From: Cognatundibacterium squillarum
Lineage (GTDB): Bacteria; Pseudomonadota; Gammaproteobacteria; Burkholderiales; Burkholderiaceae_D
Direction of reading: 5' to 3'
DNA length: 64,000 nt
Assembly (NCBI RefSeq): GCF_014652435.1
Contig: NZ_BMYU01000001.1
Location: 434,001-498,000, forward strand
This document shows, one piece after another, positions 29,280 through 43,958 of this stretch. Position numbers and translations under genes: made by a program. The notes under the pieces were generated by a model. It was not told the DNA's origin, did not search any database, and saw only the letters and a list, made by a program, of their open reading frames with translations. Position 1 is the stretch's first letter, and each line of letters begins with the position of its first letter.

Positions 29280-30887
29280 ATGAAAACCTATGATGTCGTG
29301 ATTGTTGGCAGCGGACTGGCCGGATTATCGGTGGCCCTGCATCTGGCAAAAACCCGCAAAGTGGCGGTGATTACAAAACGAAAACTGCTGGATGGTGCCA
29401 GCGACTGGGCACAAGGCGGCATTGCTGCCGTTCTGGATTCTCATGACAGTCATGAAGAACATGTCAGCGATACTCTGATTGCCGGTGCTGGCTTGTGCGA
29501 TGAAGGCGCCACCCGCTACATCATTGAGCATGGCCGTGAAGCCATTGAGTGGCTGATTGAACAAGGCGTGCCATTTACTCGCGATGATGAAGCTGAACTG
29601 GGTTTTCATCTGACCCGCGAAGGTGGTCACAGCCAGCGCCGCATTATTCATGCCGCTGACGCCACCGGCCACGCCGTTCAGGTAACACTGGAACAGAAAG
29701 TCCGTGCGCATCCGAACATCGCTCTGTACGAACATCATTACGCAATTGATCTGATCACCAGCGCCAAGCTAGGCGACAGCTCGCCGACACCACGCTGTCT
29801 CGGTTTGTATGCACAGGATATTAAGACCGGCGAAGTACATACCTTCTCCGCTCAGCATACGATTATGGCGACCGGCGGTGCCGGTAAAGTGTATTTATAT
29901 ACGACAAATCCTGACACTGCGACAGGTGACGGCATTGCGATGGCGTGGCGCGCAGGATGCCGCGTCGGGAATATGGAATTTATTCAGTTCCATCCAACCT
30001 GCCTGTATCACCCTTACGCCAAATCTTTCCTGATCACGGAAGCTGTGCGTGGCGAAGGCGGCGTACTGAAATTACCGGCAGAAGCCGGCGCCGCGGCAGG
30101 CAAGCGCTTCATGCTGGATCATGACGAGCGCGCCGAACTCGCGCCGCGCGATGTCGTTGCACGCGCGATCGACTTCGAAATGAAAAAACGTGGTCTGGAT
30201 TATGTGGAACTGGATATTTCCCACCAGCCGCCGGAATTCCTGAAAGAGCACTTCCCGACCATTTATGCGCGCTGTCTGGAACTGGGAATCGACATGACGA
30301 AACAAGCGATTCCGGTGGTTCCGGCAGTCCATTTCACCTGCGGTGGCGTGGTGACGGACACCAATGGCCGCACTGATATTCCGGGCCTGTATGCAATCGG
30401 TGAAACTGCATACACCGGCCTGCACGGTGCGAATCGTCTGGCCTCCAATTCGCTGCTGGAATGTCTGGTGATTGGCAAAGCGGCTGCTGGTTTTATTGAA
30501 GCTCAGCAACGCGTGAATCCGATTGCCCTGCCCGACTGGGATGAAAGCCGCGTGTCGGATGCTGACGAAGAAGTGGTGATCGCCCATAACTGGGATGAGC
30601 TGCGTCGCTTCATGTGGAATTACGTGGGCATTGTGCGTACGACCAAACGGCTGGAACGTGCCAAACACCGCATTCGCCTGCTGAAAGAAGAAATCGATGA
30701 ATACTATTCGCACTTCCGCATCTCCAGCGATTTGCTGGAATTGCGGAATCTGGTGGAAGTTGCATCACTGATCGTCAATTCTGCGCTGTCGCGCCGTGAA
30801 AGCCGTGGCCTGCATTTCAGCCGCGATTATCCGGATACCCTGCCGAAAGCACTGCCGACGGTGTTATCACCGAAACGCAAACGCTGA
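29280..30887 (+). CDS. nadB: L-aspartate oxidase
   Basis: A 535-residue flavoenzyme that oxidises L-aspartate to iminoaspartate, the first step of de novo NAD synthesis. ATG 29280 gives [20 protein letters not shown], the FAD dinucleotide-binding start. Further signatures are [25 protein letters not shown], the active-site [12 protein letters not shown] and the succinate dehydrogenase-like C-terminal helix bundle. Its partners nadA and nadC lie at 41.9-44.0 kb on the other strand, not in one operon. A terminator follows. Confidence 0.96.
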
Positions 30888-30939
30888 CGCCCTTCCGGTG
30901 CACATCGTGTCGGCCGGAACTCAGCAGAAACACCCATAC

Positions 30940-30968
30940 AGCCCGGCACTGCGCCGGGCTTTTGTTTT
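30940..30968 (+). terminator. Terminator after nadB
   Basis: Stem AGCCCGGC / GCCGGGCT with a 5-base loop (30940-30947 and 30953-30960) followed by TTTGTTTTG. Confidence 0.85.
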
Positions 30969-31009
30969 GCGTCACTGGCCAGCTTCCGTCCGCAACGGTT
31001 ACAAACCGT

Positions 31010-31110
31010 CAAAAAAAGGCTCAAATGCGGTGTTCAGCACAGCTACCGGCTGGTTGTCGGCAGAAAGTCCGGGGCTTGGCAAACGTGCAATGACGATTCC
31101 TGCATCATAT
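31010..31110 (+). repeat. Dispersed intergenic repeat, copy A
   Basis: It contains the family start AAATGCGGTGTTCAGCACAG at 31023 and the core GTCGGCAGAAAGTCCGG. The tail then diverges. It lies between the nadB terminator and the methyltransferase start. The tail ends near a TATAAT at 31107-31112, which could serve as a -10 box for the methyltransferase gene. Confidence 0.8.
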
Positions 31111-31151
31111 AATTGTTGCCTGCCCTTTTATTTCAGAGAGTGAGCGAGGTT

Positions 31152-31805
31152 ATGGATCAAAGCGCACAGGATATGCAAACCTATTACAGTGCCCGCGCCT
31201 CGTATTACGACGCTGTGTATCTGAAGCCGGAGCGGCAGGCGGATATCCAATTTCTGAGCGCCTATTTACCGGCGCAATTTGCAGGCAGGAATGTGCTTGA
31301 AATCGCTTGCGGCACGGGTTACTGGACGCAGCACATTGCGCCGGTGACGCGCAGCATGCTGGCGACTGACGGCAATGCCGATCCGCTCTCCTTTGCCCGT
31401 CAGCGTCCCGGCACTGCACACATTGCATTTCAGGTTGCAGATGCGTTTGCGCTGGAAAATATCAGCAGTGAGTTTGACGCCGCCTTTGCCGGACTGTGGT
31501 TTTCACACGTTCTGAAGCAGGATCAGCAAAGATTTCTGAATGGCTTATATTCACGGTTGCAGCCCGGAGCCAGAGTCATCATGATCGACAACAATGCATC
31601 GCAGTTGCTGGATTTTCCGATCACGGAAACCGATGCAGACGGCAATACCTTCCAGCACCGCGATTTACGCGATGGTTCGGTGCACCGCATACTGAAAAAT
31701 TTTCCGGCCGAAGCAGAACTGCGCGCACTGGTGGACGGTTGCGCAACGGACATTTCCTATCAGAACCTCGGTCATTTCTGGCTGTTCAGTTACACCCTGA
31801 AGTAA
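31152..31805 (+). CDS. Class I SAM-dependent methyltransferase
   Basis: A 217-residue cytoplasmic methyltransferase read from ATG 31152, which has a GCGAGG site. Motif I is VLEIACGTGYW (48-58), the acidic residue after strand 2 is in MLATDGNADPL, and a later VADAFAL segment contacts the adenine. It resembles the Methyltransf_11/UbiE-like group. The substrate cannot be told. It is flanked by repeat copy A upstream and the decayed copy F downstream, and shares no operon with its neighbours. Confidence 0.85.
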   Translation: MDQSAQDMQTYYSARASYYDAVYLKPERQADIQFLSAYLPAQFAGRNVLEIACGTGYWTQHIAPVTRSMLATDGNADPLSFARQRPGTAHIAFQVADAFALENISSEFDAAFAGLWFSHVLKQDQQRFLNGLYSRLQPGARVIMIDNNASQLLDFPITETDADGNTFQHRDLRDGSVHRILKNFPAEAELRALVDGCATDISYQNLGHFWLFSYTLK

Positions 31806-31860
31806 AGCCTCTGCACGAACCAACGGAAGACACTTAACAAAACCGGAAGTCCGGATGCGT

Positions 31861-31930
31861 AAAAGCACTGAAAATGCCTGAAATGCGGTTTATGGCACAA
31901 CCATCTGCCGCTTGCCCGCGAAAACAGTGC
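31861..31930 (+). repeat. Dispersed intergenic repeat, decayed copy F; AT-rich gap
   Basis: AAAATGCCTGAAATGCGGT at 31871 matches the left edge of copy C (AAAATGCCCCAAATGCGGT). A diverged run to about 31920 follows. The rest of the 324-base gap to the ABC ATPase gene is AT-rich and holds no convincing gene or terminator; it probably carries the export operon's promoter. Confidence 0.5.
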
Positions 31931-32129
31931 GTCTCTGTATTTGGCTCTTGCCGATTTTTGCACAATCAAACCACCATTCCGCCGCTCTCAAAGGCGAATT
32001 CTCACAACTTCTTACACAAATATTGACTTTTAGTCTTTTCATAGTCACATTGTCGGCTCTTTCTTTTCAGAACTGTTTTTTGTACCTAACAGCAAAAAGC
32101 ATTCTCAGATACTCCGCGGTGACTCAGGC

Positions 32130-32795
32130 ATGATTCAGCTAGACAATATACAGCGCCACTACAAACAGGGCGGCGGCACGATACAGGCATTACGCGGACT
32201 CAGTTTACGCATCGCGCCCGGTGAATTTGTCGCGATTATGGGCTCTTCCGGTTCCGGCAAATCCACTTTACTGAATATTCTTGGCGCACTGGATAAACCC
32301 AGCGCCGGCAGTTACCGGCTGAACGGTACGGAAGTCGGCGCAATGGATGACGATGCAGCATCTGCCCTGCGCAGCCGGCAAATCGGCTTTGTATTTCAGT
32401 CATTCCACTTGCTGCCACGCTTAACCGTACTGGAAAACGTGCTGCTGCCGCAGCGCTACTTGCCGGAACAAGACCCGGAAGCACCGCAGCGTGCACGCGC
32501 ACTGCTGGAACGCATGGGTCTCGGTCATCGCATTGATCACCGCCCCGGAGAACTGTCCGGTGGTCAGCTGCAGCGTGCCGCAATTGCGCGCGCCTTGCTG
32601 AATCAGCCTTCCCTGTTACTGGCGGATGAACCCACCGGCAATCTGGACAGCAAAAGTGCGACCGACGTACTGCAGTTATTTTCTGAATTACACAGTCTGG
32701 GTCAGACCATCGTACTGGTTACACATGATCCGAATGTCGCAGCAAAAGCGCAACGCACTATCCTCTTAAACGACGGCAATCTGGTTTCCGCATGA
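32130..32795 (+). CDS. ABC exporter ATPase (MacB/LolD type)
   Basis: A 221-residue nucleotide-binding protein. Walker A is GSSGSGKST at 38-46, the signature LSGGQLQRAAIARAL is near 145 and Walker B is LLLADEPTGNLD near 165. The TGNLD ending and overall length are typical of the MacB/LolD/FtsE mechanotransmission class, which pairs with an FtsX-like permease. Its partner permease is the last gene of this operon at 35970. Its stop codon overlaps the next start by 4 bases (ATGA). The ATG has a GGTGA site. Confidence 0.94.
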   Translation: MIQLDNIQRHYKQGGGTIQALRGLSLRIAPGEFVAIMGSSGSGKSTLLNILGALDKPSAGSYRLNGTEVGAMDDDAASALRSRQIGFVFQSFHLLPRLTVLENVLLPQRYLPEQDPEAPQRARALLERMGLGHRIDHRPGELSGGQLQRAAIARALLNQPSLLLADEPTGNLDSKSATDVLQLFSELHSLGQTIVLVTHDPNVAAKAQRTILLNDGNLVSA

Positions 32796-34753
32796 CATCC
32801 CCTCAGTTTCTTATGACGCGGCTGGCCAGCGCCACCGCAATCGCCCTGCTCTGCCTGCAGGCTCACGCTGACACAAGCAATGCGACTACGCCAGCGAAAC
32901 CCGCAGCAGCAAGCCAAAGACTGGTTATTCTGAATGGCAGTGTGGATTCGCTGAACAGTCAGTCACTGTTTATTCCCGTCTCTGACATTAATCCGGTTAC
33001 TTTGAAATTTTTTGTACCGGAAGGCGGCAAAGTCAAAAAAGGCGATGTGGTGTTATCGATAGGCACTTCGGGCAACAACACGCAGGAAATGCAAACCCGT
33101 CAGGAACAGCAGCAAGTGAAAATGGCGCTGGAACTGGCAAAGCTGGAAGTGGTGGCGATTGAGGCAGAACGGGCACTGCATACGGCCCAGATCGCGCTGG
33201 CGAAAGCACGACTGGACGCCAGCCTGCCGCAAGGTCAGATCAGTGCGCTGGATTACGACAAATACCAGACCGATAAAGAAAAAGCGCTCAAAGAACTGGA
33301 AATCCGTAAAACTGCGGTCGAGATCGCGCGTAAAAACATCGCCAAAACCAAAACTGACGGCGAACTGGAAGCACGTAAAAACCAGTTGCAAATGGCGTAT
33401 CTGCTGAAGGAAAACGCAAACACGTCGGTTCATGCAGAAGTGGATGGTGTCGTTATTCATGCATTTAACCAGTGGCGTGGCGAACGTTATGACGAAGGCG
33501 TACCCGGATTTTCCGGGCACCGTGCCGGTCAGGTAATGACAGATGGTGCTTTTGAACTGATTGCCTGGGCACTGGAAGCCGACCGCCTGTCGCTGAAAGA
33601 AGGCATGCCAGTCTATCTGACGCCAGACGCTTATCCCGGGAAAACGATCAGCAGCACGATCAAGCGCATCAGCCCGGCACCGGAAGCCGGCCCTTCCGGA
33701 GAAAAAGGACGTTTTTTCAAAGTCACGATTCCTTTACCGCCGCAAGCCGGCCTGACTTACGCACCGGGAATGAGCATTCGCGTCAGTACCGCACCAGCAC
33801 CAGCGCGCCATCTGAGCCAGTCCCTGCCCGACAATCTGACCATTGATGGCGAAGTCTTATCGCGCAATTACCGGTCGATTATTCCGCCATCCATTCGCTA
33901 CATCTGGAATTACACCGTTGGCCAGATCGTGCCGGAAGGCACGCATCTGAAGGCTGGTGAACAAGTCTTGCAACTGCAATCGACCGAGGTGCAGGAGCGA
34001 CTGGTCACATCGCGCAATTTACTGAATGAAAAAAATAAAGCGTTAGAAAAATTACTGCTGGAACAGAAAGAAGCGGAAAGACTGGGCGAAATCCAGATTG
34101 CGGAAGCCCGTGCAGCAGCAGAAAAGGCGGCGCGTAAAGCGACGATGCCGAAAGAGCTGATACGACGTATTGATTACGACAAACTGGTGATTGATAAAGA
34201 AGCCGGTCAGGCACAGCTCGAATTGCAGCAAAAGCTGGTCGCAGCACAATCTGCGCAGCGCAATGCAGAGAAACGTTTCCTGCAAACTGAAATGCAGATG
34301 GAACAAAAGAATCTGAACGATTTGCAGGCTGGCATTAAAGCACTGACCATCACGGCACCAACTGCCGGTATCGTGCAATACCGGATGTCTTATGACGATG
34401 AAAAAATCAAGAAAGGCAGCAAAGTCTGGATGGGACAAACCATTGCCGGACTGGCAGACCCGGACAACATGTATATCAAAGCAAAAGTGCCGGAAGCCCA
34501 ATACGGTTTAATCAGCATGGGGCAAACCGTGACTGTCAAACTGCCCGGTGGCAATCAGACTGCACAGGCAAAAATACTGAGACCGGGACTGGCTTTTCAG
34601 TCACGCTCTCATACCGACAACAGCATTGTCCGTGATCTGGAACTGGAATTTACACAACGCCCGGCCAATCTGAAACCCGGCTCCGCTGTGCAAGTCATTA
34701 TCCCGCTGACGAAGGCGGCCACCTCTGCTCAGCCAAAATCCACTGCAAAATGA
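32792..34753 (+). CDS. Double-length periplasmic adaptor protein (two HlyD-like modules)
   Basis: A 653-residue exported protein with a signal peptide (about 1-27, ending LQAHA). The sequence falls into two successive adaptor modules. Module 1 (about 45-345) has a lipoyl half-motif VPEGGKVKKGDVVLSIG, a Lys/Glu-rich coiled coil (about 100-210), the return strand VHAEVDGVVIHAF and a barrel. Module 2 (about 350-645) repeats this: VPEGTHLKAGEQVLQLQ, coiled coil (about 405-520), ITAPTAGIVQY and a barrel with MGQTIAGLADPDNMYIKAKVPE. Usual adaptors are 350-420 residues with one module. It overlaps both neighbours by 4 bases. Confidence 0.87.
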   Translation: MTSPQFLMTRLASATAIALLCLQAHADTSNATTPAKPAAASQRLVILNGSVDSLNSQSLFIPVSDINPVTLKFFVPEGGKVKKGDVVLSIGTSGNNTQEMQTRQEQQQVKMALELAKLEVVAIEAERALHTAQIALAKARLDASLPQGQISALDYDKYQTDKEKALKELEIRKTAVEIARKNIAKTKTDGELEARKNQLQMAYLLKENANTSVHAEVDGVVIHAFNQWRGERYDEGVPGFSGHRAGQVMTDGAFELIAWALEADRLSLKEGMPVYLTPDAYPGKTISSTIKRISPAPEAGPSGEKGRFFKVTIPLPPQAGLTYAPGMSIRVSTAPAPARHLSQSLPDNLTIDGEVLSRNYRSIIPPSIRYIWNYTVGQIVPEGTHLKAGEQVLQLQSTEVQERLVTSRNLLNEKNKALEKLLLEQKEAERLGEIQIAEARAAAEKAARKATMPKELIRRIDYDKLVIDKEAGQAQLELQQKLVAAQSAQRNAEKRFLQTEMQMEQKNLNDLQAGIKALTITAPTAGIVQYRMSYDDEKIKKGSKVWMGQTIAGLADPDNMYIKAKVPEAQYGLISMGQTVTVKLPGGNQTAQAKILRPGLAFQSRSHTDNSIVRDLELEFTQRPANLKPGSAVQVIIPLTKAATSAQPKSTAK

Positions 34754-35973
34754 AGATGCGATTCCCACTCTCTGCCGCTGCGCTCGGCGTTTCTTTATTA
34801 ATCAGCGCATGCAGCCAGCCCGCCGAGCAGAATGCGACCACTGAAATCCTGCAAGAAGCGGCATGGCGCGAAACCATGGAAATTCAGGGTGAAGTCATTG
34901 CCCCTGAAAAAACACCGGTCAACGTACCCGGCTCGGGCTGGGCTCCGCGCATTCTTGAATACATCGCGCAAAACGGCAACGCTGTCAAAAAAGGTGATCT
35001 GATTGCGCGTTACCGTGCACCACGATCGGAAACAGAGCTGGCAAAAGCAGAACTGGAACTGGACCGCAAAGAACTGGCACGCGAAGAGCTGGAACGCAAC
35101 GATACCAAACGCCGTGCCGAAATCCATGCAGACCAGAGCAAAGTCAATGCTGATCTGCATTTAAGCGAACGCTATTCAGGTGCGGATCAGCAATTATTCT
35201 CGCGCAATAAAGTCCTCGACACGATTCAGGATCAGGCGTTTCTGAAACAAAAACAAGGCTATCTGAACTGGCAATTGTCACAAACCAGTGTGCGTACGCA
35301 GTCGGATCAGGCACTGCTGCGTTCGCAACTGGAATCTGTCACGCAAAAAAGAGATACCGAAGCGAATGCTTTGCAGCAACTGGAAGTCCGCGCACCGCAT
35401 GATGGCTTTCTGATGCTGGAAAAAAACTGGAGCGGTATGACACCGATGGTCGGTGCAACCGCAAGGCCGGGCGATGTGATCGGGAATTTGCCGGATCTTT
35501 CGCATCTGGTTGCTAATTTTCAGATTCCTGAACAGCGCACCTTTGCACTGCAAACCGGCCAGACCATTGAAGTCAGGCTGATGGGCAGCGGCAAACATGT
35601 GCCGCTGAAAGTCACCCGTATCGGCACTACTGCCAGCCCGATCGGCGAAAAATCGCCGGTTAAATTTATCGAAGTGGATGCGGCATTCAGTGCAGAACAT
35701 ATTCAGCAAATGCAATTAACACCGGGGCAATCGCTGAGCGGCAATCTGATTTTCGCGAATAAGGAAAAAATCCTGACCGTACCGAACATTGCACTGAAAG
35801 AAGAAAACGGCCAGTTCTTCGTATTCCGGATCGAACAGGGAAAACCCGTCAAAACCGCCGTCAAACTCGGGTTACGCGGCCCTACCCGCTCTGAAATCAC
35901 CGAGGGCTTACGTGCCGGCATGCAAATCAGCCTGATTCCGACCACTGAACAAAAAGAAAAATCCGCATCATGA
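34750..35973 (+). CDS. Lipoprotein periplasmic adaptor (MacA/RND type)
   Basis: A 407-residue adaptor with a lipoprotein signal (LLISACSQ, lipid Cys about residue 21). The lipoyl half-motif YIAQNGNAVKKGDLIARY is followed by a coiled coil (about 95-195) and the return strand VRAPHDGFLMLEKNW. Then come a barrel (LPDLSHLVANFQIPEQ) and a membrane-proximal domain (VPNIALKEENGQFFVFRI). The operon thus supplies three adaptor modules on two polypeptides. It overlaps both neighbours by 4 bases, so the four proteins are probably made in fixed proportion. Confidence 0.92.
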   Translation: MKMRFPLSAAALGVSLLISACSQPAEQNATTEILQEAAWRETMEIQGEVIAPEKTPVNVPGSGWAPRILEYIAQNGNAVKKGDLIARYRAPRSETELAKAELELDRKELAREELERNDTKRRAEIHADQSKVNADLHLSERYSGADQQLFSRNKVLDTIQDQAFLKQKQGYLNWQLSQTSVRTQSDQALLRSQLESVTQKRDTEANALQQLEVRAPHDGFLMLEKNWSGMTPMVGATARPGDVIGNLPDLSHLVANFQIPEQRTFALQTGQTIEVRLMGSGKHVPLKVTRIGTTASPIGEKSPVKFIEVDAAFSAEHIQQMQLTPGQSLSGNLIFANKEKILTVPNIALKEENGQFFVFRIEQGKPVKTAVKLGLRGPTRSEITEGLRAGMQISLIPTTEQKEKSAS

Positions 35974-37208
35974 ATATTCCGTTTGCCCTGATCACCGAAG
36001 CGGTGGATGAGCTCAGCCGACGCAAACTGCGTACCGGTTTAACCCTGCTGGGCATGTTGTTCGGCGTGGCTTCGATTGTTGCGATGCTGGCGGTTGGCGA
36101 AGGCAGCCGGCGCGAGGCGTTGCGTCTGGTATCGGAGCTGGGTCTGCAGAATCTGATCGTGGAATCCAAGAACCTCAGCAATGAACAATTGAAAGAGATC
36201 CGCGGACGCAGTCTGGGCCTGAGCAGTGATGACGGCGCCGCTGCGTTGCTGGCAGTACCCGGTGCGGAATCCGTTGCCTTGCGCACCGAAATCAAAACCG
36301 ACCAGATTGTGTACGGTCAGAAAGTCGAAACCGGCCATACTTTTGCTGTGACGGAACCGTATGCACAGCAATCCGGATTACAAACCGGCGCTGGCCGCTG
36401 GTTTAATGCATCGGATTTTGCAACACAGGCTGCCGTTGCCGTGATCGGCCCGCGTATCGCGGCGCAGTTATTCGGTCAGGTAAATCCGGTCGGAGAATTT
36501 ATCCGCGTCAATAATGTCTGGCTGCAGGTGGTTGGCGTACTGGCTGACCGCGCCAAAAGCAAATCGGAATTTGAAGGCATTAAGCTGGGGCTGGATGATG
36601 AACGGATTTTTGTACCGTGGGACAGCGCAAAAATGCGCTTTCCCGTGCGTGAACTGGAAGATGAAGTCAGTTCTCTGAGCCTGCGTTTGCGCGAAGGCAC
36701 ATCGCCGGAAGCGGCAGCCCGCGTACTGCAACGCCTGATCGAAGCACGCCATAACGGTGCAGACGACACCACCCTGATCGTACCGATGGGTTTGTACCGC
36801 CAGAACCAGCAAACCCAGAAAATTTTTACGATTGTAATGAGTTCCATTGCCGCCGTTTCATTACTGGTTGGCGGCATTGGCATCATGAATATCATGCTCG
36901 CGAATGTACTGGAACGTAAAAAAGAAATCGGTTTAAAGCGTGCTCTGGGAGCAACCCAGCGCGATATCGTGCGCCAGTTTCTGGCCGAAGCACTGGTGAT
37001 TTCCGGAATGGGTGCGCTGCTCGGCTTGCTGGCCGGTATTGCGGCCGCTTACAGTATTGCAGCGCTGGCAGGCTGGTCGGTGGCATGGTCACCACTGACG
37101 CTGATCATCGCCGTTTCTGCCTGCGTTGCCACCGGTCTGGGCTTCGGTGTTTTCCCCGCCCGTCAGGCCGCACAGCTTGATCCGATTGCGGCGTTACGCA
37201 GCGAATAA
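35970..37208 (+). CDS. FtsX/MacB-type ABC permease
   Basis: A 412-residue inner-membrane permease. One N-terminal helix (about 20-42, RTGLTLLGMLFGVASIVAMLAVG) precedes a large periplasmic MacB_PCD domain (about 45-260). Three C-terminal helices follow (from about 285, KIFTIVMSSIAAVSLLVGGIGIMNIM, to LGFGVFPARQAAQLDPIAALR). The ATPase is a separate gene at 32130, unlike E. coli MacB where it is fused. It is the last gene of the operon and ends in a strong terminator. No outer-membrane TolC partner is encoded in the window; cargo unknown. Confidence 0.94.
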   Translation: MNIPFALITEAVDELSRRKLRTGLTLLGMLFGVASIVAMLAVGEGSRREALRLVSELGLQNLIVESKNLSNEQLKEIRGRSLGLSSDDGAAALLAVPGAESVALRTEIKTDQIVYGQKVETGHTFAVTEPYAQQSGLQTGAGRWFNASDFATQAAVAVIGPRIAAQLFGQVNPVGEFIRVNNVWLQVVGVLADRAKSKSEFEGIKLGLDDERIFVPWDSAKMRFPVRELEDEVSSLSLRLREGTSPEAAARVLQRLIEARHNGADDTTLIVPMGLYRQNQQTQKIFTIVMSSIAAVSLLVGGIGIMNIMLANVLERKKEIGLKRALGATQRDIVRQFLAEALVISGMGALLGLLAGIAAAYSIAALAGWSVAWSPLTLIIAVSACVATGLGFGVFPARQAAQLDPIAALRSE

Positions 37209-37220
37209 ATTCTGCAGTTC

Positions 37221-37250
37221 ACGGTGTCCCGCAAACGGACACCGTTTTCT
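37221..37250 (+). terminator. Terminator of the ABC export operon
   Basis: Stem ACGGTGTCC / GGACACCGT (37221-37229 and 37237-37245) with a 7-base loop, followed by TTTT. Confidence 0.88.
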
Positions 37251-37301
37251 ATCTTTCCTGTAAATTTCACATTAATTTAAATATTTACAAAATCTAACCA
37301 C

Positions 37302-38156
37302 TCACATCTGCTGAAACAAATGTGTATGGTTGCGACTGACTTCCAGTTTCTCTGTACTGCCTTTGATGCTGACTAACTGGCGGCCACGAAAATCGCGGGT
37401 GACTTCTGCAATCGCGGAAACGCGCACCAGCGACGAGCGGTGGATACGCCAGAATTCATCCGGGTCCAGTTCATCTTCCAGCTCTTTCAGCGATTTACGA
37501 ATCAGATATTGCGCCTGCTCGGTTTGCACCAGCGTGTATTTTTCATCCGATTTAAAAAACAGAATTTCTTTGGTGCTGATCATGCGCAGGCTGGTACCGA
37601 CACTGGCCTGCACCCAGCGCAGATAATCGCGCTTCTGCCCCTGCTGCATTTGCTGCTGTATCAGCTGGGTCAGCATGGTTTGCACATCGGTGGCAACCGG
37701 CAGATTTTCACTGGCGTTGCCCGCTGCAATCGCGGGACGTGACTGCGCCTGTGCTGCTTCTGCTGCTTTGCGCTTTTCGGAGATGCGTTCTTTCAGGCGG
37801 TCACAGGTCTGCGCTAAACGCTCTGCATCCACTGGTTTGAGCAGGTAATCCATCGCACCGCGTTCAAACGCTGCAATCGCATATTCGTTATATGCGGTGA
37901 CAAACACCACCTGTGCCATCGCAGCCAGCTGTGCTGCCGCTTCAATGCCGTTTTTACCGGGCATACGAATATCCAGAAACACCACATCCGGTTGCAGCGC
38001 CTGCGCCTGTTCAATCGCAGCGATACCATTACCCGCTTCGCCGGCGATTTCCAGTTCCGGCCACACCTGCGCAAGACGGCTGCGCAGCCAGTCGCGCATT
38101 GGCGCTTCGTCATCTACCAGTAAAGCCCGCACTGTGCTTATATTTCCGATACTCAT
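37302..38156 (-). CDS. LytTR-family response regulator
   Basis: A 284-residue regulator. The receiver domain spans 8-125 with the acidic DDE at 15-17 and phospho-acceptor Asp62 (VVFLDIRMPG). A Gln/Ala-rich linker with a KRKAAEAAQAQ coil follows. The LytTR DNA-binding domain is at about 180-284 (ISTKEILFFKSDEKYTLVQT, RIHRSSLVRVSAI). It lies 14 bases after its histidine kinase and converges on the ABC export operon. This is the closest regulator to that operon, but a regulatory link is only inferred from position. Confidence 0.92.
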   Translation of the reverse strand: MSIGNISTVRALLVDDEAPMRDWLRSRLAQVWPELEIAGEAGNGIAAIEQAQALQPDVVFLDIRMPGKNGIEAAAQLAAMAQVVFVTAYNEYAIAAFERGAMDYLLKPVDAERLAQTCDRLKERISEKRKAAEAAQAQSRPAIAAGNASENLPVATDVQTMLTQLIQQQMQQGQKRDYLRWVQASVGTSLRMISTKEILFFKSDEKYTLVQTEQAQYLIRKSLKELEDELDPDEFWRIHRSSLVRVSAIAEVTRDFRGRQLVSIKGSTEKLEVSRNHTHLFQQM

Positions 38157-38170
38157 GCCCTTTTGTCTCC

Positions 38171-39070
38171 TTAAGTTTGGCTTACTGTGTCTGCAGCCGG
38201 AACACGCAGAATAAATGTCGCGCCACCCGCTGCCGGAATTTCTGTCAGCAGACTTGCCTGCCCTTTGTACAAGGCGCGTAAGCGTTCACGGATGTTTGAT
38301 AAACCCACACCGTCGTCGGCATGCATGTCTAAGCCGACACCATTGTCGCTGACTTCCACTTCCATAAACCCGTCCTGCAATCTCGCACTAATACGAATCT
38401 CGCCACCTTCGGTACTCGGCTCCAGCCCGTGCTTGATCGCGTTTTCGACCAGCGTCTGTACCATCATTGAAGGAAAGGCTTCCAGCGCCAGCGCTTCCGG
38501 CACATCAATGCTGAAGCGTAATCGCTGCTGCATCCTTGCCTGCATGATGTTCAGATAGGCGCGTGACAATTCGATTTGCTGTCCCAGCGTCCCCATCCCC
38601 TGCTGACGCATTTGCGGCATGGCAGAACGCAGATAGCGAATCAGGTCGGCATGGACTTTCGATGCCTGTTGCGGCTGTGTTTCAATCAGCTGACCAATCA
38701 GCGCCAGCGTATTAAATAAAAAGTGCGGTTCAATCTGTGCCTGCAGCGCAGCCATTTCTGCTTCTAACACGCGCCGCTCCAGTGCCTCCATATCGGCTCG
38801 CGATGCTGCAGCCACCGCTGCCAGTTCCGCACGGTGCTTACCACCGGCCAGACTTTTGATCAGGATGGACACCACAATCAGCCAGAATGCCAGCGGCCCC
38901 AGCCCCATCGTTCCGCCGATGATCAGCACCAGAAACGATACAAAAAACAGATACTTCCACGAGATGACTGCCAGCCAGTCAAAAAACTTCCACCAGCCCT
39001 CCCGCAACAAATCGCGTACCTCCAGCACAATACTGCGCAGTGACGGAGGTACAAACTCAGGCTTATTCAT
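38171..39070 (-). CDS. LytS/AlgZ-type sensor histidine kinase
   Basis: A 299-residue inner-membrane kinase. Two hydrophobic segments are near 32-80 (a short hairpin with little periplasmic exposure). The His_kinase motif is IEPHFLFNTLALIGQLIETQP, with the phospho-His in PHFLFN near 115. The ATPase domain has VENAIKHGLEP and SDNGVGLDM, then GLSNIRERLRALYKG. Its start overlaps the end of the small membrane protein gene at 39063 by 8 bases. It pairs with the LytTR regulator just downstream. Confidence 0.92.
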   Translation of the reverse strand: MNKPEFVPPSLRSIVLEVRDLLREGWWKFFDWLAVISWKYLFFVSFLVLIIGGTMGLGPLAFWLIVVSILIKSLAGGKHRAELAAVAAASRADMEALERRVLEAEMAALQAQIEPHFLFNTLALIGQLIETQPQQASKVHADLIRYLRSAMPQMRQQGMGTLGQQIELSRAYLNIMQARMQQRLRFSIDVPEALALEAFPSMMVQTLVENAIKHGLEPSTEGGEIRISARLQDGFMEVEVSDNGVGLDMHADDGVGLSNIRERLRALYKGQASLLTEIPAAGGATFILRVPAADTVSQT

Positions 39071-39371
39071 GATCTTCTTTTTTCTCGCTGTCAGGTGCCG
39101 GTAATGCGATCGCGGCAGGCTCGCTCTTTTCTGCGCTGTCTTCTGCCGGATTCACAAAGCATTTTACCAACAGTGCTGTCAGAACAAACACATTTGCCAG
39201 TGGCACCAGTGCCAGAATGCCACTCAGTATCCACACCAGCAAAATCACCGCAAACAGGCGCAGCCAGCTCATCGCAACAATCTTGGTGACAAACCACATC
39301 CAGCAATAATGGATGGTTTCGCCGGTTTGAATGACGGTTTCCAGAATCGGGTTACGTTGTGTGCTGTTCAT
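39063..39371 (-). CDS. Small membrane protein ahead of the LytS/LytTR pair
   Basis: A 102-residue protein read from ATG 39371, which has an excellent GAGGAGAGAG ribosome binding site. Two hydrophobic stretches (about 24-52 and 54-72) are followed by an acidic/Ala-rich tail rich in Glu and Asp to the C-terminus. It is the first gene of a three-gene unit with the kinase and regulator and overlaps the kinase start. It may modulate the kinase, whose own sensor region is short. Family not recognised. Confidence 0.75.
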   Translation of the reverse strand: MNSTQRNPILETVIQTGETIHYCWMWFVTKIVAMSWLRLFAVILLVWILSGILALVPLANVFVLTALLVKCFVNPAEDSAEKSEPAAIALPAPDSEKKEDHE

Positions 39372-39562
39372 GATCTCTCTCCTCGGGTGTGTGTTGAAAT
39401 GTGCTGCTGATGGACACAGTGTGCACCGCCCCCGCCCCTGCTTCCAGCTGCCTGCGACTAAGTGCAGCAGCAACGGGTTTAATGGCAGGATGGCGGGTTA
39501 AACGGGAGTGAGATTTTTCGTTACGACAGAACGGATGCTGAAACTGCGGTGTGAATGTGCGG

Positions 39563-40510
39563 TTAAGGGCGGATAAGTCGGGAGAAATCTCTGGTTTGAA
39601 ATGCTGTGACGATGATGTCACGCAATATGATCAACTGTTGAAACAGAGCAGGCTTAGAGGCGTACTTGTCGCGGTAGTAAGAGTCTATGCTGTCAAAACA
39701 CTTGCTATCGTGCACACAAAAGGTCAGCAATATCAGACTATTAGCCTTGCAATCCACGCCCAACTGGCAGGAGGCCCAACGCCAGGCATCTTCAACCAAT
39801 TCTCTGCGTCCATTGTCGGCATATGTCTCACCGTTGACCCAGTAACTTTGCTCACCCTTTTCGTTGTAATAACGGCTTGCTTCAGTCGCATAGAGTGCAA
39901 TCGTGGCGGGATCCTGCAACTCTGCAAGTCCGCTCATCAGTTTCAGGCGCTGTGTCGCAGTGAACCTACTTTCTTGTACCAACTGAAAAAAATCATTTCT
40001 GACGCGCTCAAGCAAATCTCCGGACTCGACAATTCCGCCAACAAATTCATTTATACCTTCAAGGCTGAGTTCCCTGCTGGTAAATCCATGACAGCGATAG
40101 CGCAAATCATTGAGTGCAGCCTGTTTTTTTGCAAACAAGCCGGCATCGGTGTAATCGGTTGCTTTGACATCTGCAACCTTTCTAATGAAGAGACAAATAT
40201 TGATCGCATCAAAAGCATACGTCCCACCACCTTCCTGCGGACGTTTTTTCGCCATTTCCGCAAAGGCACGCAAGTCCTTGCTGGCGTAAAACGCCTTTGC
40301 AATCTCCAGCGTTTTCCCTTTGGTCGGGTTTGGTGCAGCAGCAGGCTCAGAACTTGCCTGTACAGGTACAGCGGGCTGTTTATTGATCGCAACAAGCTGC
40401 GCAGGATTAGCCGGCCCAAGCGTGAGATCGGGCGACGTCTGATACCAGCGCCAAACGGCAAAGCCACTCACTGCCAGCAAAACTGCGACGCCTGCAATGC
40501 GCTTATTCAC
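39563..40510 (-). CDS. Unknown membrane-anchored/exported protein, duplicate copy 1
   Basis: A 315-residue protein of unknown function. The N-terminus MNKRIAGVAVLLAVSGFAVW is a signal anchor. A Pro/Ala-rich linker to about residue 65 leads to an alpha-helical domain with cysteines in INICLFI, RYRCHGF, ASCQLGVDC and CVHDSKC, which may form disulfides in the periplasm. It is about 95% identical over its full length to the neighbour at 40663 (about 16 differences by eye). It is downstream of copy 2 on the same strand with a 152-base spacer. Confidence 0.8.
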   Translation of the reverse strand: MNKRIAGVAVLLAVSGFAVWRWYQTSPDLTLGPANPAQLVAINKQPAVPVQASSEPAAAPNPTKGKTLEIAKAFYASKDLRAFAEMAKKRPQEGGGTYAFDAINICLFIRKVADVKATDYTDAGLFAKKQAALNDLRYRCHGFTSRELSLEGINEFVGGIVESGDLLERVRNDFFQLVQESRFTATQRLKLMSGLAELQDPATIALYATEASRYYNEKGEQSYWVNGETYADNGRRELVEDAWRWASCQLGVDCKANSLILLTFCVHDSKCFDSIDSYYRDKYASKPALFQQLIILRDIIVTAFQTRDFSRLIRP

Positions 40511-40662
40511 CGGTTTCTCCCATTCTTTGTAACGATTAACTGTGTACGCCGTTATGCAAACGCTGCCAGCGACATTGTCTGCGGAAAAACAGACAAGAAT
40601 TTCGCATCGCGGTCATCACACATAGATGTCTGTTTTGAATTGCCTCGTACCGAATACTGTCA

Positions 40663-41610
40663 TTACGGCTTAATCAGCTTAGAAAAATCTCTGTTTTGAA
40701 ATGCAGTGACGATGATGTCACGCAATACGATCAACTGTTGAAACAGAGCGGGTTTAGAGGCGTACTTGTCGCGGTAGTAAGAGTCTATGCTGTCAAAACA
40801 TTTGCTATCGTGCACACAAAGGGTCAGCAATTTCAGGCTGTTAGCCTTGCAATCTACCCCCAGCTGGCAGGAGGCCCAACGCCAGGCATCTTCAACCAAC
40901 TCTCTGCGTCCATTGTCTGCATAGGTCTCTCCATTAATCCAGTAACTTTGCTCATTTTTTTCGTTGTAATAACGGCTTGCTTCAGTCGCATAGAGTGCAA
41001 TCGTGGCGGGATCCTGCAACTCTGCAAGTCCGTTCATCAGTTTCAGGCGCTGTGTCGCAGTGAACCTACTTTCTTGTACCAGCCGAAAAAAATCATTTCT
41101 GACGCGCTCAAGCAAATCTCCGGACTCGACAATTCCCCCAACAAATTCATTCATACCTTCAAGGCTGAGTTCCCTGCTGGTAAATCCATGACAGCGGTAG
41201 CGCAAATCATTGAGTGCAGCCTGTTTTTTTGCAAACAAGCCGGCATCGGTGTAATCGGTTGCTTTGACATCTGCAACCTTTCTAATGAAGAGACAAATAT
41301 TGATCGCATCAAAAGCATACGTCCCACCACCTTCCTGCGGACGTTTTTTCGCCATTTCCGCAAAGGCACGCAAGTCCTTACTGGCGTAATACGCCTTTGC
41401 AATTTCCAGTGTTTTCCCTTTGGTCGGGTTTGGTGCAGCAGCAGGCTCAGAACTTGCCGGTACAGGTACAGCGGGCTGTTTATTGATAGCAACAAGCTGC
41501 GCAGGATTAGCCGGCACAAGCGTGAGATCGGGCGACGTCTGATACCAGCGCCAAACGGCAAAGCCACCCACTACCAGCAGAACTGCAACGCCTGCAATAC
41601 GTTTATTCAT
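40663..41610 (-). CDS. Unknown membrane-anchored/exported protein, duplicate copy 2
   Basis: A 315-residue paralogue of the preceding gene with the same signal anchor, linker and Cys pattern. The ATG at 41610 is chosen by comparison with copy 1; an in-frame upstream start would add 23 residues with no counterpart there. Differences are scattered, with a long identical block at about residues 75-150, and several are conservative (I/V, K/R). Both frames are intact, so both copies appear to be used. No domain name is recognised. Confidence 0.8.
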   Translation of the reverse strand: MNKRIAGVAVLLVVGGFAVWRWYQTSPDLTLVPANPAQLVAINKQPAVPVPASSEPAAAPNPTKGKTLEIAKAYYASKDLRAFAEMAKKRPQEGGGTYAFDAINICLFIRKVADVKATDYTDAGLFAKKQAALNDLRYRCHGFTSRELSLEGMNEFVGGIVESGDLLERVRNDFFRLVQESRFTATQRLKLMNGLAELQDPATIALYATEASRYYNEKNEQSYWINGETYADNGRRELVEDAWRWASCQLGVDCKANSLKLLTLCVHDSKCFDSIDSYYRDKYASKPALFQQLIVLRDIIVTAFQNRDFSKLIKP

Positions 41611-41722
41611 CCGGTTTTCCTGTTTTTGTCTATTTGCGTATTCCGTGCTTCCTGGTAATTCATGTCGCCAGAGAAACATTTTCTCAGCAGATTAACGGTG
41701 AAGTGCAAAAAGCGCAATAAAA

Positions 41723-41818
41723 CAGGTGAAATGCGGTGTTCAGCACAAGGATCCGGCGGTCGTCGGCAGAAAGTCTGGCTGTCAGAAAATAGTAAATGAC
41801 GATGGCTGCACAGTACCT
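41723..41818 (+). repeat. Dispersed intergenic repeat, copy B
   Basis: It starts GAAATGCGGTGTTCAGCACA at 41728 and carries the core GGCGGTCGTCGGCAGAAAGT. The tail is GATGGCTGCACAGTACC. It lies in the 316-base gap between duplicate copy 2 and nadC, next to a terminator. Confidence 0.85.
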
Positions 41819-41830
41819 AGCCGCATAGCC

Positions 41831-41874
41831 AAAAAAAACCACCGCAGACCAGCAGGTTTGCAGTGGTTTTTTTT
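41831..41874 (-). terminator. Terminator after nadA-nadC
   Basis: Imperfect 12-base-pair stem CCACTGCAAACC / GGTCTGCGGTGG (minus-strand reading) flanked by long A and T runs on both sides, so it can act in either direction. It lies 53 bases after nadC. Confidence 0.85.
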
Positions 41875-41926
41875 GCAGCCGACCAGCGCTGAAACTGCGC
41901 GCTAATCAAATTGCTAATCACATCAT

Positions 41927-42793
41927 TTACAGCACGCGCAGCGAGTAATCGGTGGCTTTGACGTCTTTGGTCAGGCTGCCGATGGAAATGCGGTCGACGC
42001 CGGTTTCGGCGATGGCGCGCAGCGTGGAATGATCGACGCCGCCGGAGGCTTCCAGCAAAGCGCGGCCTGCGTTGATGCTGACCGCTTCGCGCATCATGTC
42101 CGTACTGAAGTTATCGAGCAGAATCGATGTCGCACCGGCGTCCAGTGCCTGATGCAGTTCGTCCAGATTTTCAACTTCAACCTGAATGCTGACACCGGCG
42201 TTCAGCGCGAATGCCTGTTGCATCGCCGGCGCGATACCGCCCGCGGCGGCGATATGGTTTTCCTTGATCAGAATGCCGTCGTACAGTGCCAGACGCTGGT
42301 TTTTACCGCCGCCGACGCGAACTGCGTATTTCTGCGCCAGACGCAGGCCAGGCAGCGTTTTGCGGGTATCCAGCACGGCAGCGCGGGTGCCTTCGGTCAG
42401 TACTGCGTAGTGACGGGTTTTAGTGGCAACACCGGACAGCAATTGCAGGAAGTTCAGCGCGGAACGTTCTGCGGTCAGCAGCGCGCGTGCGGGTGCTTCG
42501 ATGCGGCATACCACGCTGTCGGCACGCATCAGATCGCCTTCGGCATATTGCCAGTCAACGACGATACTGGAATCGCAGGCTTGCATCACCGCATCAAACC
42601 ACGGTGCGCCGCACAGTACGGCATCTTCGCGCACAATCACTTGTGCTTTCACACGTTCTTCCGCCGGTACCAGCAGGCCGGTCAGATCGCCGCTGCCGAC
42701 ATCTTCTGCCAGTGCGTCGCGGATATTGCGCTCAAACGCTTGCTGCAGGTCTGCATCAAACGGTGCATGCGCATTGTTGAGGTTGCTAGACAT
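41927..42793 (-). CDS. nadC: Nicotinate-nucleotide pyrophosphorylase (quinolinate phosphoribosyltransferase)
   Basis: A 288-residue enzyme that converts quinolinate and PRPP to nicotinate mononucleotide. ATG 42793 is chosen as it gives the normal N-terminus with IRDALAEDVGSGDLTG; the frame stays open further upstream only as read-through in nadA. Signatures are ERSALNFLQLLSGVAT, DTRKTLPGLRLAQKYAVRVGGG, IQVEVENLDEL and the closing ASGGVDHSTLRAIAETGVDRISIG. It follows nadA after 28 bases on the same strand. Confidence 0.96.
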   Translation of the reverse strand: MSSNLNNAHAPFDADLQQAFERNIRDALAEDVGSGDLTGLLVPAEERVKAQVIVREDAVLCGAPWFDAVMQACDSSIVVDWQYAEGDLMRADSVVCRIEAPARALLTAERSALNFLQLLSGVATKTRHYAVLTEGTRAAVLDTRKTLPGLRLAQKYAVRVGGGKNQRLALYDGILIKENHIAAAGGIAPAMQQAFALNAGVSIQVEVENLDELHQALDAGATSILLDNFSTDMMREAVSINAGRALLEASGGVDHSTLRAIAETGVDRISIGSLTKDVKATDYSLRVL

Positions 42794-42821
42794 AAGAGAC
42801 TTTCTCTGAAAATAAAGCGGA

Positions 42822-43958
42822 TCAGGCCGGACCGATGTTCTGGAACAGCGCACCGTCTTTGGCCAGATCGCCGGACGGACGCACATTCGCTTTCTTCGCT
42901 GCAGCGAAGTCCAGCATACGGTCGATACAGGTTTTGGCTTTCTGTGCGATGGCGGTATCAACGTTGATTTCATTGCTGCCGGTTTCCAGCACGTGCAGCA
43001 GATTGCGCAAGCCATTCATCGCCATCCACGGGCAATGCGCGCAGCTCTTGCAAGTGGCGCTGTTGCCGGCAGTCGGCGCAACGATAAAGCGTTTGCCCGG
43101 CGCAGCCATTTGCATTTTGTGCAGAATGCCGTTGTCGGTGGCGACGATGAATTCCTGCGCATCCATGGTTTGCGCGGCATGAATCAGTTGCGAAGTGGAG
43201 CCGACCACATCGGCCTGTGCCACTACAGACGCTGGCGATTCCGGATGCACCAGCACTTTGGCGTTCGGATATTCCGCCTTCATCACATCCAGTTCCACGC
43301 CTTTGAATTCATCATGCACCAGACAGGAACCCTGCCACAGCAGCATGTCAGCGCCGGTTTCTTTCTGAATGTAGCTGCCCAGATGTTTGTCCGGCGCCCA
43401 CAGAATTTTTTTGCCTTGTGCATGCAGGTAGCGCACGATGTCCAGACCGATGCTGGAAGTCACCATCCAGTCGGCGCGTGCTTTGACGGCGGCGCTGGTG
43501 TTGGCATACACCACCACGGTGCGGTCAGGATGGGCATCGCAGAACGCCGCGAATTCATTCGCATCACAGCCCAGATCCAGCGAACAGGTCGCATCCAGAT
43601 CCGGCATCAGAATGGTTTTTTCCGGGCTCAGAATTTTGGCGGTTTCGCCCATAAAGCGCACACCGGCCACGATCAGGGTTTTAGCTTCATGATCACGGCC
43701 AAAACGCGCCATTTCCAGCGAATCAGATACGCAGCCGCCGGTTTCTTCGGCCAGATCCTGCAAGTCCGCATCCACATAGTAATGCGCCACCAGTACCGCC
43801 TGCTTTTCTTTCAGCAAGGCACGGATACGGTTTTTCAGGGCGATTTTTTCTTCCGGTGTCGGCATATCCGGCACTTTGGCCCACGCATTGGCGACACAAC
43901 TGCTGCCTTCTTCCATTAAAGGACGTTCAAATTCAACGACTTTGGTAGCTTCCATCAT
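42822..43958 (-). CDS. nadA: Quinolinate synthase
   Basis: A 378-residue 4Fe-4S enzyme that condenses iminoaspartate with dihydroxyacetone phosphate. Signatures are [29 protein letters not shown] (substrate and cluster region), FMGETAKIL, the [10 protein letters not shown] region and the late [13 protein letters not shown], together giving the three cluster cysteines typical of the family. It forms a two-gene unit with nadC. The upstream region carries near-palindromic TATAC/GGGG sequences that may be an operator. Confidence 0.96.

Follow-up and report, generated by a model that had tools for sequence, protein, structure and literature searches.

How does an ATP-binding cassette (ABC) exporter of the MacB type employ three adaptor modules when MacAB-TolC manages with one? 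The question is posed by an operon in a 64,000-nucleotide stretch of the Cognatundibacterium squillarum genome (contig NZ_BMYU01000001.1, positions 434,001 to 498,000; hereafter the window, in whose own numbering coordinates are given). Its four genes, all on the + strand, encode an ABC ATPase of the MacB/LolD/FtsE type on a gene of its own apart from the permease (32130-32795, 221 residues; ABC_tran, 8.8e-36), a 653-residue tandem adaptor that carries two HlyD_3/HlyD_D23 stretches, modules A and B, in a single chain (32792-34753), a 407-residue lipoprotein adaptor, module C (34750-35973; HlyD_3 above the cut-off), and a 412-residue permease of the MacB/FtsX type with the MacB periplasmic core domain (35970-37208; MacB_PCD 6.4e-34, FtsX 1.2e-20). 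The open reading frame coordinates bore out the order and the ATGA overlap at all junctions that an original prediction, made from the letters of the window, had described. We conclude that the operon almost certainly encodes a three-adaptor MacB-type (type VII) ABC exporter. Two features of that class are present: MacB_PCD and FtsX scored 118.5 and 74.1 bits in the permease (Pfam cut-offs 27 and 25.5), and the cognate ATPase within the operon scored 124 bits for ABC_tran (cut-off 25).

The 653-residue chain contains the adaptor fold twice. In its AlphaFold model (mean predicted local distance difference test score (pLDDT) 83.2, predicted template modelling score 0.64, 42 alignment rows), a beta-sandwich, a long helical hairpin and a beta-barrel occur in succession and then occur again. 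Module A comprises residues 43-335 (32918-33796), with the hairpin at residues 96-209 (helices 96-143 and 152-209; 33077-33418); module B comprises residues 347-640 (33830-34711), with the hairpin at residues 398-517 (helices 398-450 and 459-517; 33983-34342). The linker region between them (33797-33829) measured 5 to 33 residues between chosen points in 42 aligned fused proteins. Profiles of the two halves aligned with each other over 297 columns (E 9.6e-36), and this match together with the two repeats of the model ruled out a single adaptor module with an unrelated extension. The profile of A matched HlyD, ZneB, EmrA and MacA chains in the PDB and that of B matched MacA and EmrA chains. Foldseek likewise returned EmrA and MacA as the best PDB matches of the tandem model; in a second structural comparison, the adaptor rows all fell on its second half, module B. 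Searched by sequence, the whole protein gave only two chance-level PDB matches (E 0.88 and 0.92). Its N-terminus, judged by eye, resembles a signal peptide and has no lipobox. Both modules end after the beta-barrel in the model, and both lack the membrane-proximal domain that MacA has at its C-terminus. The original prediction of two complete adaptor modules was thus right in the number of modules, and its word "complete" holds with this one restriction.

The separate lipidated adaptor expected beside the tandem chain was confirmed as far as sequence and model allow. Module C has a lipobox cysteine, Cys21, that is invariant across a 42-row alignment, a hairpin at residues 91-209, and a predicted membrane-proximal domain near its C-terminus, which the models of the window operon placed in C only. 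Its profile matched MacA up to residue 397-398, and its model (mean pLDDT 85.9) had MacA as the best Foldseek match. All three modules show the fold of HlyD/membrane fusion protein adaptors, a sandwich split by a hairpin and followed by a barrel; the assignment comes from model and structure search for B and C, and from model secondary structure and profiles for A. The profiles of A and of B each aligned with that of C, with 14-19% identity among the three by profile alignment.

The operon corresponds to none of the systems with which we compared it. It shares with MacAB-TolC a MacB_PCD/FtsX permease, an ABC ATPase and a MacA-like adaptor with hairpin and membrane-proximal domain, but the ATPase is a separate gene, there are three adaptor modules rather than one, two of them without the membrane-proximal domain, and C is, by its lipobox, lipid-anchored whereas MacA has an N-terminal transmembrane helix. 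The NCBIfam MacB model PRK10535 was the best match of both ATPase (255.2 bits) and permease (186.7 bits) against an equivalog cut-off of 966; there is thus no single fused ATPase-permease chain above the MacB cut-off, nor a single adaptor product. For the ATPase, the closest NCBIfam models were MacB and LolD, each under its cut-off. The NCBIfam darobactin exporter models also stayed below their equivalog cut-offs (DarD 215.7 of 375 bits, DarC 40.7 of 450 and DarB 12.7 of 700). TriABC-OpmH resembles the operon in having more than one adaptor in the operon, and both of its adaptors are described as crucial (PMC13328181), but its adaptors are two and separately encoded and its transporter is of the resistance-nodulation-division (RND) type, whereas the transporter here is MacB_PCD/FtsX. 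VarACDEF of Vibrio cholerae is, like the present system, a MacB-like exporter with a separate ATPase; it is described with two permeases, one full adaptor and a linked outer-membrane channel (PMC5595328). A fused adaptor as such is not new. A natural two-adaptor fusion with an ABC transporter, DSY0927 of Desulfitobacterium hafniense, has been published (PMC4338810, PMC4446572); it differs in that its N-terminal half lacks a coiled coil, and the account in PMC4338810 treats it under Gram-positive bacteria and mentions no third adaptor where it deals with this protein. Already in print, too, are the two-adaptor RND pump TriABC (PMC13328181) and working fused AcrA dimers (PMC4446572). Among the literature matches listed, none described a three-adaptor ABC pump.

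We compared 56 loci: the window, 46 from a scan of named genomes, L023 from a plasmid search and eight from a phylum-wide draw with the module A profile. The scan loci came mainly from Undibacterium, Massilia, Duganella and Rugamonas, the rest from Pseudoduganella, Telluria, Lysobacteraceae, Rhodanobacteraceae and unplaced metagenome-assembled genomes. Strong matches to the 653-residue protein (E <1e-60) occurred in 17 of 35 genomes of the same genus, and no strong match was found in 24 genomes of other families of the order; a family draw gave 23 matching genomes of 294 at E 1e-10 or better. The plasmid search added Pseudoalteromonas (2 of 72,556 records, of which one, L023, was read). With the fused profile, the window's genome was the sole match at E 1e-15 among 369 genomes of the class, few candidates being scored per genome. 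More telling was the module A profile, which matched 40 of 398 genomes of the phylum at E 1e-10 and 10 at 1e-50; the 30 weaker matches look like generic adaptors, and all ten strong ones belong to the window's class. Two of the ten were already in the set (the window's genome and, from the same family, G444), and these were also the only strong matches among 250 genomes drawn from the order. The remaining eight, although found via A alone, all show the same succession of ATPase, A, B, C and permease.

A, B and C occur once each in all 56 loci. At contig ends the ATPase is missing in L104 and L106 and cut in L111, and the permease is cut in L090, L104 and L106. The C gene of L084 (9957-11206) is split into overlapping frames of 334 and 88 residues, possibly through a sequencing error in a metagenome-assembled genome, and was counted twice. 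For a control we drew 37 other genomes from the class; 17 of them had MacB_PCD matches at E 1e-25 or better, and all 25 loci concerned were taken. One adaptor lay nearby in 21 of these 25 loci, none in 4 and more than one in 0; at L217, one of the four, the models used failed to recognise even the permease. The same count, whose models could miss a very divergent adaptor, gave three in the window, L023, L112 and L183, and one in each of four other adaptor-bearing MacB-type loci of the C. squillarum genome. The junctions were largely kept as well, with a -4 overlap in 40 of 46 scored junctions between ATPase and first adaptor and in 41 of 48 between lipoprotein and permease, where the start codon closest to the preceding stop was chosen, which favours overlaps.

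The double length of the adaptor is real here and is not the essential feature. A and B share one open frame in the window, in 43 of the 46 scan loci and in L182 of the phylum draw; they are separate genes in L111, L112, L113, L023 and the other seven phylum-draw loci (11/56). The order of ATPase, adaptors and permease is fixed across the loci, and the fusion is not. What counts is that an operon carries three adaptor modules, since in some relatives these modules come from three genes. B and C lie in different frames in 56/56 loci, so that fusion only ever joins A with B, which suggests that A and B are probably neighbours in the ring considered below. In a tree that covered all operons but L090, L104 and L106, 53 in total, fused L182 grouped with split L181, L111 and L112 (L182-L181 support 0.87), and at least two changes of state were required on the tree of 26 chosen rows. 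A single fused clade was rejected by the approximately unbiased (AU) test, with p-AU 0.006 for ATPase plus permease and 0.0001 for all five parts; the tested clade was defined by the fusion trait, but with the first tree already known. These are quick trees with long branches and no fixed root, on which one old fusion followed by later splits is possible. In the five-part tree the branch of the window operon, at 0.85 changes per column, is long beside those of the copies from elsewhere in Undibacterium.

Several split lineages bear on how the tandem chain may have arisen. B seems, on sequence grounds, to be a lipoprotein there: a lipobox matched the pattern in L184, L185, L186 and L187 and was seen by eye in L023, L183 and L188. 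The pattern is a weak guide in the eight new loci: L183 and L188 escaped it, and it also flagged B of L181 and the fused chain of L182, which may equally well begin with a plain signal peptide. B of L185 and of L188 aligned to the C profile as far as its end and so seems to possess a membrane-proximal domain; B of L111 and of L112 lacks this domain and starts with a plain signal peptide. Probably B lost its lipid anchor and membrane-proximal domain before fusing with A.

The hairpins of the three modules are nearly equal in length. From landmark to landmark, B measured 124 residues in 56/56 loci; C measured 124 in 53, 126 in two and 122 in one; A measured 124 in 41, 125 in 13, 123 in one (the window) and 95 in one, where a contig end probably cuts it. 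Counted by hand from alignments, the conserved-glycine spans of the window modules were 135, 137 and 137. Equal hairpin height is what a shared ring would require, and common descent could also yield it.

For the architecture, MacAB-TolC provides the template. It is described as one MacB dimer with six MacA and three TolC, in which three MacA contact each MacB, two of their membrane-proximal domains touching the Sabre and one the Porter subdomain (PMC5985334). Three MacA per MacB there and three modules here suggest a two-fold (A-B-C)x2 ring. By this analogy, an ordered ring A-B-C-A-B-C on the permease dimer would be an evenly poised proposition. The original prediction had spoken of a mixed ring of defined order; the mixed ring is the reading we favour given two modules in the chain plus a lipidated adaptor, and the order is the conjectural part. 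Two ATPases and two permeases would form the usual ABC dimer, each of the three unequal MacA-type positions would be occupied by its own module, and C, lipid-anchored and with the membrane-proximal domain, would be the main permease contact. ATP-driven closing of the permease might then push periplasmic cargo up the ring, to leave through an unlinked TolC-like channel. The wider proposal, to which we give a shade less than even weight, is that three dedicated, non-interchangeable modules have taken over the three unequal adaptor positions of each MacB-type subunit, so that the hetero-hexamer is ordered and two-fold; that part of this order is fixed by the covalent joining of A and B in two lineages; and that the family belongs to the window's class (Gammaproteobacteria in the GTDB sense). 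Each operon encodes, in fixed order, one ATPase, one permease and one each of A, B and C. With six identical adaptors between a two-fold transporter and a three-fold channel, as in MacAB-TolC, single-gene mutation cannot test the role of each position. If each position here has its own module, the modules could be removed or altered one at a time, which would open the stoichiometry of the adaptors and their division of labour to direct test. The tandem chain also offers a naturally linked adaptor pair for structural work.

Several observations weigh against this ordered ring. The models cover single chains, so that ring, order and copy number are conjectural. Every locus was located by its A module, alone or together with B, and an operon that has lost A would escape notice. 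The equal hairpin length may be inherited from one ancestral adaptor; in four single adaptors of the same genome the glycine span was 92, 106, 142 and 138, two of them close to the 135-137 here and two far off. The RLS pattern for TolC binding, at the spacing used, is not conserved at the hairpin tips (strict form in A 0/56, C 2/56, and B 27/56 but before the tip), leaving the link to TolC unsure. The tandem chain could, finally, trimerise by itself into (A-B)x3, a ring whose six hairpins would match the TolC trimer, with C as an extra permease clamp. This we consider unlikely, though it is the best placed of the alternatives: TriABC has two adaptors, a 3:(3+3):3 model is favoured for TriABC-OpmH in a review (PMC13328181), fused AcrA dimers complement (PMC4446572), and the two tandem hairpins together aligned with TolC chains at Z ~10, a level that can reflect merely a common arrangement of long helices. 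The C hairpin is as long as those of A and B, which would be superfluous for a mere clamp, the membrane-proximal domain is on C only in the window, and the permease dimer is, by family, two-fold.

The remaining explanations fare worse. A tandem module might reach a different outer-membrane partner, as the original prediction had suggested, or there might be no channel at all and the adaptors might guide lipid or lipoprotein as in Lol-like systems. The lack of a linked channel gene and of conserved RLS tips would fit such a role, which we nonetheless judge rather improbable, since the equal hairpin lengths weaken it and the best structural matches are EmrA and MacA. Poorer prospects attach to two further ideas. 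The three adaptors might be alternatives, each forming its own homomeric ring as the pump switches partner or cargo; all three modules are indeed adaptors with hairpins, but the A-B fusion forces two of them together, the genes overlap, and one of each was kept in 56/56 loci, though the search route would hide loss of A. Equally doubtful is neutral elaboration, in which adaptors duplicated and diverged without fixed order or new function: the modules are homologous, yet every locus compared still has one of each despite long divergence (L023 and L113 have a module A that is 22% identical to that of the window), and the A-B fusion state changed at least twice.

As originally predicted, no TolC and no cargo gene is adjacent: no outer-membrane factor or recognisable cargo was found among open reading frames of at least 100 residues, smaller cargo peptides not being searched for. 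The OEP-family matches of this genome are either on a different contig or separated from the operon by more than 240 kb. When the longest frames of 15 OEP loci, at least one of which is probably an adaptor, were compared by tblastn with 48 loci (flanks up to about 8 kb), six loci had a match; only the matches in L103 and L076 resemble OEP, each of them several kb upstream of the operon, and the other four fell on adaptors. E. coli MacAB works with unlinked TolC, so the absence of a linked TolC gene is unremarkable. No flanking family was shared by more than 11 of the 48 loci, as judged with crude greedy gene calls in G+C-rich loci and again with small peptides outside the search.

Gain or loss of an accessory cassette at the nadB/nadC site seems to account for where the operon is found. 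It lies between nadB and nadC-nadA in the window (30887-43958) and in L068 to L075. Eight operon-less genomes of the genus were searched for nadB and six sites were fetched; in five (L226-L229 and L231) the nadB and nadC matches were 99-159 bases apart, and in the sixth no nadC match fell within the stretch. L080 and L091, from other Undibacterium species, had none of these nad-region neighbours within the stretch compared. Directly 3' of the last stop codon of the operon is a terminator-like stem of 9 pairs with a T-rich tail (37221-37245, + strand); such sites numbered 11 in the region against a shuffle mean of 8.9 (sd 3.2), not clearly raised. Further downstream on the - strand, the tandem gene pair 39563-40510 and 40663-41679 encodes products 95% identical over 315 residues, with no Pfam family at E 0.01. 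Between the operon and this pair, a LytTR response regulator and His_kinase pair (37302-39070, - strand) is convergent with the operon; it also stands between permease and nadC in L070, L071 and L073 of eight such neighbours compared.

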